Assembly: GCF_003597675.1 (NCBI RefSeq)
Contig: NZ_CP030827.1
Span: 4,034,501 to 4,098,500, forward strand
Origin: Neorhizobium sp. NCHU2750
Lineage (GTDB): Bacteria; Pseudomonadota; Alphaproteobacteria; Rhizobiales; Rhizobiaceae
DNA: 64,000 bases
Reading direction: 5' to 3'
The first letter of the stretch is position 1; every line of letters starts with the position of its first letter. A model generated the notes under the pieces. The model was not told the origin of the DNA. It worked only from the letters and a program-made list of their open reading frames with translations, and ran no database searches. Position numbers and translations under genes: made by a program. Positions 13,574 through 54,694 of this stretch are shown piece by piece.

Positions 13574-13727
13574 GGGTATGTCCTCCGTTGACGTCCCGCG
13601 GGACGAATTGTTTGTGCGCAACAAGAGGATGCAGTGAGCAAGGCGATGCGTCGCCTGCTGTCCTCCTCCCCTTGATCGACGGCGCCCACCTCCATGGGGC
13701 CGGATGCCTTAAGCGATCACAGCAAGC

Positions 13728-28493: not shown

Positions 28494-28569
<76 letters not shown>

Positions 28570-35388: not shown

Positions 35389-36012
35389 TCAGCTATGGGC
35401 AAAAATGTCTGTTTCGTCCCAGCCGAGCAGGTCCAGCTTGGCACGGGTCGGCAGGAATTCGAAACAGGCCGCGGCCAGCTCGGCGCGCCCATCGCGCTCC
35501 AGCCGCATCGTCAGTTTGTCCCGCAAGGCATGCAAATGAAGCACGTCTGATGCCGCATATTCCAGCTGTGCCTGGGAAAGTGTCGCGGCTGCCCAGTCGG
35601 TTTGCTGCTGTGCCTTCGAAATATCGACCTCCAGCAACTCGCGGAGGTTATCCTTGAGCCCATGCCGGTCGGTATAGGTTCGCGTCAGGCGTGAGGCGAT
35701 CTTGGTGCAGAACACGGGTGTCGTCGTCACGCCGAAGGTGTAGAACAGCACGGCAATGTCGAAACGCCCGTAATGAAATATCTTTTGGCGCGAAGGGTCG
35801 CAGAGGATCCCGACCAGATTGGGTGCCTGTTTCTGCCCGGCGGCAATGCGGATGACGTCCGCCGTGCCGTCTCCGGGAGACAGTTGCACGACGCAGAGCC
35901 TGTCGCGGCGCGGCACCAGCCCCAGCGTTTCGGTATCGATGGCGATTGCGTCGCTGTAGCGGGCGGCATCTTCCGCAGAAATATCCCCTTCATGGTAGCG
36001 TATCACGGCCAT
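35389..36012 (-). CDS. rnd: Short ribonuclease D (DEDDy 3'-5' exonuclease)
   Basis: The 207-residue protein is the exonuclease domain of RNase D without HRDC domains, the common short form in Alphaproteobacteria. The DEDDy residues are visible: Asp26 and Glu28 in AIDTETLG, Asp85 in FHYGRFD, and Tyr152 and Asp156 in EYAASDV. It trims 3' ends of tRNA and other stable RNAs in the cytoplasm. The start at 36012 matches family length and has GGGGAAGG upstream; a longer frame from 36042 adds 10 residues. The gene is single; the three-hairpin small RNA is divergent from it. Confidence 0.9.
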   Translation of the reverse strand: MAVIRYHEGDISAEDAARYSDAIAIDTETLGLVPRRDRLCVVQLSPGDGTADVIRIAAGQKQAPNLVGILCDPSRQKIFHYGRFDIAVLFYTFGVTTTPVFCTKIASRLTRTYTDRHGLKDNLRELLEVDISKAQQQTDWAAATLSQAQLEYAASDVLHLHALRDKLTMRLERDGRAELAAACFEFLPTRAKLDLLGWDETDIFAHS

Positions 36013-36132
36013 GGATGCCTTCCCCGATCTCACGTTTCGCAATCGCTATAACGCGGCTTGCCTGGTTGCGATACGCTTATGATGAAACAAGTGCCATCAC
36101 GATAGCGAGCAAATGCTCAGCCTTGCACATAA

Positions 36133-36149
36133 TGCATTGCTGCAATGCA
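36133..36149. promoter_or_regulatory. 17-bp perfect palindrome upstream of the small-RNA promoter
   Basis: TGCATTG-CTG-CAATGCA has 7-bp perfect arms and a 3-bp spacer. It ends 10 bp upstream of the proposed -35 box (36160-36165) of the three-hairpin RNA, the usual place for an activator or repressor site. The binding protein is unknown. Confidence 0.4.
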
Positions 36150-36159
36150 CCGAGCCGGC

Positions 36160-36189
36160 TTGGCGAAACCGGTACGGTCGGCTTATAAG
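36160..36189 (+). promoter_or_regulatory. Probable sigma-70-type promoter of the three-hairpin small RNA
   Basis: TTGGCG at 36160-36165 and TATAAG at 36184-36189 (or TTATAA at 36183-36188) are spaced 17-18 bp, placing the transcription start near 36196, just before the first hairpin. Confidence 0.5.
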
Positions 36190-36195
36190 CTTGTT

Positions 36196-36322
36196 CATCG
36201 AACGACGCACTCCTCCTCCCAGTGTCGTTCGAGACGGATCGACAACATCCTCCTCCTCCCAGTTGTCGATCAAGTTTAAAGCCTGGCGCATCCTCCTCCC
36301 GCGCCAGGCTTTTCGCTTTTCT
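36196..36322 (+). ncRNA. Three-hairpin small RNA with CCTCCTCCC loops (cuckoo/CcsR type)
   Basis: Three consecutive stem-loops each expose the anti-Shine-Dalgarno-like motif CCTCCTCCC: hairpin 1 at 36199-36231 (arms CGAACGA/TCGTTCG plus CACT/AGTG, 9-nt loop), hairpin 2 at 36237-36271 (10-bp stem GATCGACAAC) and hairpin 3 at 36278-36313 (12-bp stem AAAGCCTGGCGC), followed by TTTTCGCTTTTC as terminator. RNAs with CCUCCUCCC loops are known in Alphaproteobacteria as the cuckoo family and as the stress-induced CcsR RNAs of Rhodobacter. The loops could bind ribosome binding sites or titrate a protein. Transcript ends are estimated from the promoter and T tract. Confidence 0.85.
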
Positions 36323-36458: not shown

Positions 36459-37451
36459 CTACCTGAGCGCCTCGATTGCCTTCACCACATCTTCCTCGAT
36501 CTTCAGACCATTCCTCAGCGCCTCTGCGCGTAGACCGCGCCCTCTGCGCCCGGGAAGCCTTACGCCATCCTGCTTTGCCATCTCGGCAGCAAGGTCGGCC
36601 ATCCGATGAGCCGTGCCTCCGCTATTGCCCGCGTCTGGATCGATGACAATGATCGTGTGGCCAAGCTTCGGGGGAGGTCCGTGCTCATCGAACAGCGAAC
36701 TGGCCTCGTAGGAAAAATTTGCGCCAGCAAGCCCGGCGGATAACACCTCCACCATCAGTGCCAGTGCTGCGCCTTTCGCGCCGCCTGACGGCGCCATCGT
36801 GCCCTTCAGTGCGGCCGCGGCGTCGGTCGTCGGGTTGCCATCGATATCGAATGCCCAATCGTCTGGAATGCTCGTGCCCTTCTGGGTTGCTTCCATGACC
36901 TTGCCGCGAGCGACCTTCGACAGTGCAAGGTCGATCACCAGCGGCGTGTGGCCGGCGACCGGAACGGCGAAGGCGATCGGATTGGTGCCGAACAGCGGGC
37001 TCTTCCCACCCCATGGTGCCATGGCAGCGGGAGCGTTGGCGAACATCATCGCAATCAACCCCTGCTCGGCAAAGCGCTCGACGGTCAGCGCCATGACGCC
37101 GGCATGGTGCGAGCGACCGATCGTGGCAAAGGCGATCCCCTGTTCATGGGCAATCGCCGGTAGTTCTTCAGCTGCAAGATCGAGTGCGGGAAAGGCAAAG
37201 CCATGGGCTGCATCGATCGACAGAACGGCTGGACGAGGGCGAACTGCCTGCGGCAATGCGGAGCCATCTACCTTGCCAGTGCGTACCTGCCTGACATAGG
37301 CAGGCACACGGCGAAGGCCATGGCCCGACTGGCCGGCTGCTTCGGATTGAACGAGTGCACGCGCCACCGACAAGGCCGTTGTCGGCAATACGTTATTTTC
37401 CTCGAAGACGCTTCGAACCAGCGTCTCGGCTTCGTTGAGTTTCAAATGCAT
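36459..37451 (-). CDS. Ldh-family NAD(P)-dependent malate/lactate/ureidoglycolate-type dehydrogenase
   Basis: The 330-residue cytoplasmic enzyme belongs to the Ldh2/MDG family (PF02615), unrelated to classical lactate dehydrogenases. Diagnostic stretches are SGHGLRRVPAYVRQVRTG, the catalytic-region IGRSHHAGVMAL with paired His, and PWGGKSPLFGTNPIAFAVP followed by DLALSKVARGK. Known activities include delta-1-piperideine-2-carboxylate, ureidoglycolate, sulfolactate and malate reduction, so the substrate is open. The ATG at 37451 matches family length, although its ribosome site is weak; the longer frame to 37532 adds unrelated Arg/Pro-rich residues. It follows tonB on the same strand after 89 nt. 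Confidence 0.85.
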   Translation of the reverse strand: MHLKLNEAETLVRSVFEENNVLPTTALSVARALVQSEAAGQSGHGLRRVPAYVRQVRTGKVDGSALPQAVRPRPAVLSIDAAHGFAFPALDLAAEELPAIAHEQGIAFATIGRSHHAGVMALTVERFAEQGLIAMMFANAPAAMAPWGGKSPLFGTNPIAFAVPVAGHTPLVIDLALSKVARGKVMEATQKGTSIPDDWAFDIDGNPTTDAAAALKGTMAPSGGAKGAALALMVEVLSAGLAGANFSYEASSLFDEHGPPPKLGHTIIVIDPDAGNSGGTAHRMADLAAEMAKQDGVRLPGRRGRGLRAEALRNGLKIEEDVVKAIEALR

Positions 37452-54593: not shown

Positions 54594-54694
54594 GTGGGAG
54601 GCTGGCACGGCGACCCGTGCCGGGCTCGTTAGGGCTGCTTCCTTCCGGACCTGACCCGGTTGGCGAGTGGCTCGTCCACCACCAACCTCCCGCC
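54594..54694 (-). ncRNA. ffs: Small signal recognition particle RNA (4.5S type)
   Basis: The minus strand reads GGCGGGAGG... to ...CCTCCCACC and contains the invariant SRP hairpin: GGTCAGGTCCGGAAGGAAGC followed by AGCCCTAA, with the GGAA tetraloop and asymmetric loop that bind Ffh. Terminal GGGAGG/CCTCCC pairing closes the rod. Ends are set by this pairing and are approximate. It is located about 95 nt upstream of dnaX, on the same strand, as in other Rhizobiaceae. Confidence 0.95.

Follow-up and report, generated by a model that had tools for sequence, protein, structure and literature searches.

The window analysed here is a stretch of 64,000 nucleotides on contig C1 of Neorhizobium sp. NCHU2750, whose 6.35 Mb genome comprises seven contigs. 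At positions 36196–36322 of the plus strand it carries a small RNA (sRNA) of ~121–127 nt, assigned on its Rfam match, fold and covariation, which lies between two minus-strand genes. The first, an RNase D-like 3′–5′ exonuclease gene (35389–36012, PF01612), is divergent from the sRNA and served as our synteny anchor; the second, a gene of the malate/L-lactate-dehydrogenase family (36459–37448, PF02615, start picked inside a longer open-reading frame), is convergent with it. The RNase D-like protein scores below the ribonuclease D equivalog cut-off of the NCBIfam models. Among the matches listed, from which the genome's own record is possibly missing, its closest named record comes from a Neorhizobium metagenome assembly (97% identity); Aliirhizobium terrae and Rhizobium sp. 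NFR07 come next (both 91%). A scan of the whole window against all Rfam families returned three matches at gathering threshold: the ar14 family at the sRNA, a bacterial small SRP RNA (54594–54690, minus strand, 63.6 bits) and a tRNA gene (28497–28569, minus strand, 63.0 bits).

The ar14 match (RF02344) spans 36192–36316 on the plus strand, covers model positions 1–123 of 123 and scores 102.8 bits against a gathering score of 58.8. The first-pass annotation had placed an sRNA at 36196–36322 and named the cuckoo family, and the covariance model bears out both the position and the membership: the region is a member of the alphaproteobacterial ar14/“cuckoo” family. We infer its 5′ end from the promoter, and its 3′ end from a terminator-like hairpin and a T-rich tail. 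Two other identities were rejected, that of AbcR (ar15, RF02345), as the all-Rfam scan calls ar14 here and places ar15 hits at three other places, and that of a coding region, as short open-reading frames cross the region on both strands but it is the paired stems and fixed loops which are conserved.

Of 151 genomes from the same family, the genome's own included, 146 have an RF02344 match (137 over the cut-off), with one to nine hits in each of the 146; none of 14 control genomes has one. The sRNA is a further copy of a described family, the mechanism of which is established in a relative. The genome itself has seven ar14 hits on four contigs, six of them over the cut-off. One hit under the cut-off, L007 (1501–1623 of that locus; contig C1 4115646–4115768; 53 bits), has C-rich loops without the CTCCTCC motif and is a diverged or decayed ar14 copy.

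Three conserved hairpins

The sequence CCTCCTCCC occurs at 36212–36220, 36252–36260 and 36292–36300 on the plus strand, each time in the loop of a hairpin: hairpin 1 (36198–36232) with an 11-bp stem, hairpin 2 (36237–36271) with a 10-bp stem and hairpin 3 (36278–36312), a probable intrinsic terminator, with a 12-bp stem, the last running into the T-rich tail CTTTTCGCTTTTCT (36309–36322). The loops measure 13, 15 and 11 nt and expose CCUCCUCCC in each case, a motif which contains the CCUCCU core of the 16S anti-Shine-Dalgarno (anti-SD) end. Counting both strands, CCTCCTCCC is present four times in the window, against 0.79 copies expected, a number reached by 1 of 100 shuffles; the lone copy outside the sRNA (13662–13670, plus strand) has no Rfam match at gathering threshold. 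The predicted fold has an energy of −56.2 kcal/mol, against −24.65 (sd 3.3) for shuffled sequences (z = −9.56, none of 200 as stable). It contains the three stem-loops of 11, 10 and 12 bp, with the motif in every loop, that had been read from the sequence in the first pass. The accompanying statement that the stems share little sequence does not hold for hairpins 1 and 2, which have a 20-nt stretch in common, loop included, at 75% identity.

Syntenic loci were fetched via the neighbouring RNase D-like protein. Among the best 80 of 472, the three-motif array was present at the same place in 40, a single motif in one and no array in 39, so this synteny is shared by part of the family only. Aligned together, the window and the 40 syntenic copies comprise 41 sequences (33 distinct). 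Paired cells make up 93.1%, and two-sided changes occur at 12 of 37 pairs, the compensatory signal in related genomes that had been proposed as a check on the stems. The 1131 paired cells exceed the maximum of 1093 in 200 shuffles, which leave sequence relatedness in place. Among the distinct rows, hairpins 2 and 3 hold best; hairpin 1 has two pairs close to its base that fail in 17 and 9 of the 33. The minimum-energy fold adds four outer pairs at hairpin 3; these were left out of the stem because three of them are often broken in the orthologs (19, 8 and 24 of 33 rows). Adding 30 more distant copies brought the alignment to 63 distinct rows, with 89.8% of cells paired and two-sided changes in 31 of 37 pairs.

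Probable promoter and an LsrB/VtlR-type box

Upstream of the sRNA, a −35-like hexamer TTGGCG (36160–36165, plus strand) is followed after 17 nt by a −10-like hexamer TTATAA (36183–36188, plus strand), and 36 of the 41 syntenic copies have TTGGC in their −35 region. The promoter had been given in the first pass as TTGGCG-N18-TATAAG; we keep its TTGGCG and reset the spacing and the −10 element to N17-TTATAA, a register preferred because it lines up by eye with CTATAT in many orthologs. Transcription would start at ~36196 from this putative sigma-70-type promoter, and would end at the third hairpin, which would double as the terminator. A generic scan for sigma-70 promoters and terminators returned no sites at the locus; the terminator rule takes loops of 3–8 nt only, and that of hairpin 3, at 11 nt, is too long for it.

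The strongest regulatory clue at the locus, absent from the first-pass annotation, is a sequence match to an LsrB/VtlR-type box, TGC-N7-GCA-N2-GCTG-N3-TGC, at 36124–36148 on the plus strand (~ −72 to −48). Within it, if the inferred start at 36196 is taken, TGCA-N6-GCAT (36124–36137) occupies −72 to −59 and GCAT-N3-TG-N3-T (36134–36146) occupies −62 to −50. In the Sinorhizobium meliloti sRNA NfeR1, LsrB binds the promoter via TGCA-N6-GCAT at −72 to −60 and activates it (PMC10746234), whilst GCAT-N3-TG-N3-T is described as the LsrB/VtlR consensus (PMC8844928); the Brucella VtlR motif (PMC12595884), taken on its other strand and compared by eye, also resembles the core of the box. Both published motifs match exactly and, given that start, the box sits where NfeR1 has its LsrB site; LsrB/VtlR, a LysR regulator, probably activates the sRNA from 36124–36148. 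The strict box is present in all 41 syntenic copies, window included, GCAT-N3-TG-N3-T in 34 and the exact TGCA-N6-GCAT in only 15. By a weight matrix built on 38 distinct box sites (window excluded, the near-identical relative L038 included) the window box scores 42.3 bits, and no other site on the two strands of the window exceeds −0.4. Further upstream lies an imperfect palindrome, GAGCAAATGCTC (36107–36118, plus strand), and GRGCAWWTGCYC is found in 23 of the 41 syntenic copies.

The negative result of the generic promoter scan would fit a decayed or silent copy, or a DNA repeat, which is not transcribed; however, with stems kept by two-sided changes and a box kept in 41 of 41 syntenic copies, we regard such a reading as very improbable.

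A candidate regulator is present in the genome, a LysR gene of 300 aa with trxB in front of it and two ar15 RNAs in tandem behind it, as is the case for vtlR/lsrB of A. tumefaciens (PMC7486931). None of the NCBIfam models assigns the gene to LsrB, so it takes that name from synteny. The strict box occurs four times in the 6.35-Mb genome (reversed-pattern control, 0), and all four sites are just upstream of anti-SD sRNAs: an AbcR1-like RNA, the window RNA and two further copies, one on contig 2 and one on contig 4. LysR regulators have a loose T-N11-A rule in common (PMC10746234), which leaves some room for another regulator of this type to bind the box, with the sRNA outside LsrB control. Yet the box is an exact instance of the LsrB/VtlR consensus, which diverges from typical LysR boxes (PMC7486931), and it recurs before the AbcR1-like RNA, AbcR1 being an established LsrB target (PMC8844928), so we consider control by another LysR regulator unlikely and LsrB/VtlR the probable activator.

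The box elsewhere and DUF1127 loci

By weight matrix, the box of the AbcR1-like RNA scores 21.8 bits, and those of the ar14 paralogs in the same genome 25.2 (L003), 16.1 (L006), 6.4 (L001) and 5.2 bits (L005), whilst L004 (−13.0) and L007 (−23.4) are without a box. For L001 and L005, 60 shuffles each reached maxima of 4.1 and −4.5 bits respectively, and the L001 box is doubtful as it exceeds its shuffles by so little (6.4 vs. 4.1). L003, L005 and L006 possess a fourth loop motif upstream and so resemble SmelA099, the four-loop form which, with the three-loop SmelA075, was described from S. meliloti and other Rhizobiales (PMC3927594); these RNAs have the same motif as the window copy, here from Neorhizobium sp. 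NCHU2750, and likewise occur in several copies per genome.

The CcsR RNAs of the Rhodobacter sphaeroides CIN1 locus, with CcaF1 (a DUF1127 protein), belong to a loop motif family in common with the window RNA (PMC10253847). Association of DUF1127 genes with CcsR RNAs is described in Rhodobacter and other alphaproteobacteria (PMC10253847). A DUF1127/CIN1 arrangement was rejected for the window locus, as no DUF1127 gene adjoins it; the genome has five DUF1127 places, none near the window copy, which unlike CIN1 stands away from DUF1127 with a box and a promoter of its own. CIN1-like linkage is seen at L004 and in relatives. L004 (1501–1624 of that locus; contig C1 ~2205180–2206005, with L131) is a boxless cuckoo copy with two same-strand DUF1127 frames after it. 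The locus is CIN1-like but in the opposite order to Rhodobacter, where ccaF1 comes first and the CcsR RNAs follow.

For relatives, we took the top copy from each of the 30 best-scoring other genomes (L008–L037), which is not a random draw, and detected DUF1127 with a small profile from four domains of the Neorhizobium genome. DUF1127 frames were present on the same strand within 1.5 kb in 22 of the 30, whilst seven had no DUF1127 frame within that distance and carried the strict box at −66 or −67; L011 had no DUF1127 and a near-box seen by eye. In three of the 22 (L025, L028 and L036) the box was 277–280 nt upstream, which places it before the DUF1127 frame or close to where that frame begins. 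These three loci, L140, L143 and similar ones in many Rhizobiaceae genomes show the box before DUF1127, followed by cuckoo-like arrays.

Searching 151 genomes for the box followed by CTCCTCCC at 45–75 nt gave 55 occurrences in 34 genomes (reversed control, 0), some of which begin like AbcR and not like cuckoo. The box by itself had 255 sites in 118 of the 151 genomes (reversed control, 25), and the DNA downstream was examined for the first 60 of them: six were directly before a cuckoo array, three before a single anti-SD loop, 16 before DUF1127 and a cuckoo-like array, two before DUF1127 alone; in the remaining 33, by the criteria used, no anti-SD array, anti-SD loop or DUF1127 followed. Given these 33 and the 25 control sites, some sites away from anti-SD loci may have arisen by chance or serve other genes. 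Five named plasmid copies, chosen from 20 listed of 349 matching records, were also scored: two carried the box (Agrobacterium, 13.7 bits; Rhizobium, 30.6 bits), whilst the three from Sinorhizobium, including S. meliloti pSymB, scored below zero.

In Brucella, VtlR controls DUF1127 genes and AbcR2 (PMC12595884). It is conceivable, though we rate it at slightly below an even chance, that LsrB/VtlR is one master switch for Shine-Dalgarno-directed silencing in the Rhizobiaceae, with the 25-nt box driving AbcR1, stand-alone cuckoo RNAs on the chromosome and other replicons, and DUF1127-cuckoo operons. If so, a redox or nitrogen signal would release interchangeable anti-SD loops as one pooled dose, along with small proteins of the DUF1127 type, one of which helps to mature RNAs of this kind in Rhodobacter. 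Our search, outside which most of the subscription literature lay, found no paper joining VtlR with DUF1127, DUF1127 with CcsR and LsrB with NfeR1. Eisfeld and others have reportedly dealt with a LysR regulator and numerous Agrobacterium sRNAs, which may cover part of this three-way link.

Probable action and meaning

NfeR1 of S. meliloti is an LsrB-activated sRNA which silences mRNAs via anti-SD loops on their ribosome-binding sites (PMC10746234). It resembles the window RNA in its three hairpins with CCUCCUCCC loops, its sigma-70-type promoter and its LsrB-type motif at −72 to ~ −50 (PMC10746234), a comparison of RNA and promoter features, which denotes a functional type without implying orthology. 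We regard it as highly probable that the window encodes a stand-alone, trans-acting ar14/cuckoo sRNA of the NfeR1 type, probably activated by LsrB/VtlR, whose loops block initiation at GGAGG-type sites. The family, the structure with its covariation, the box with its conservation and the presence of an lsrB-like gene are observations of this analysis. By analogy with NfeR1, the sRNA would be transcribed, would depend on LsrB and would find its targets by pairing, its CCUCCUCCC loops acting redundantly on the GGAGG-type ribosome-binding sites of target mRNAs and so blocking initiation. The first-pass annotation had suggested such a block by pairing with ribosome sites, and the idea gains support from NfeR1, for which the mechanism was shown experimentally: the three motifs are redundant, and an ntrB reporter is no longer repressed once all three are mutated (PMC10746234). 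The other option named in the first pass, that the loops bind ribosomes or a regulator, found no support in the literature consulted or in the analyses, which were directed at other questions.

Two further features described for NfeR1 in PMC10746234 were compared, the pairing with ntrB and the NtrC signature. The start region of ntrB in the Neorhizobium genome contains AAGGAGG, and its pairing energy with the loop is −9.8 kcal/mol; 1000 shuffles did as well in 22% of cases and 3000 random 52-nt stretches in 23%. Pairing at the ribosome site is thus possible, but nothing singles out ntrB here. NtrC represses NfeR1 from −116 to −101 through the motif TGC-N11-GCA, and its signature is stated not to be evident in the promoters of plant and mammal pathogens (PMC10746234). 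At the window locus TGC-N11-GCA is missing from ~ −121 to −90 (it is there in only 3 of the 41 syntenic copies) and its sole match within 200 nt overlaps the LsrB-type box, so an NtrC site placed as in S. meliloti was rejected, and a double-negative loop with NtrBC may not hold here.

In its pairing with the loop ntrB does not stand out from random stretches, so that target choice is not evident, and each RNA has three equal loops and each genome several copies. These points would suit a different role, in which the loops mainly act as a sponge or decoy that titrates an RNA-binding protein, or occupy ribosome sites widely and lower translation generally. We think this quite improbable, as NfeR1 represses a single reporter through base pairing and loses this ability when its three motifs are mutated (PMC10746234), and the literature passages on the family that we drew on name no protein binder of the loop motif. 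AbcR1 and AbcR2 (ar15) are comparable in having anti-SD motifs, and AbcR1 has the same strict box in this genome, but they belong to another Rfam family with different anti-SD seeds and, unlike NfeR1, bind Hfq (PMC8844928).

As a further copy of a described family, the sRNA matters mainly as annotation. The modest new part is the predicted control box and its apparent link to other anti-SD RNAs and to DUF1127 loci. The rule of box, spacing and CTCCTCCC picks out anti-SD RNAs with a promoter of their own, sets them apart from most copies linked to DUF1127 (among the 30 best-scoring loci) and offers a way to predict LsrB control in each genome. It also suggests a hypothesis for why a genome has several copies with the same loop, namely that these may serve dose and timing rather than different targets.
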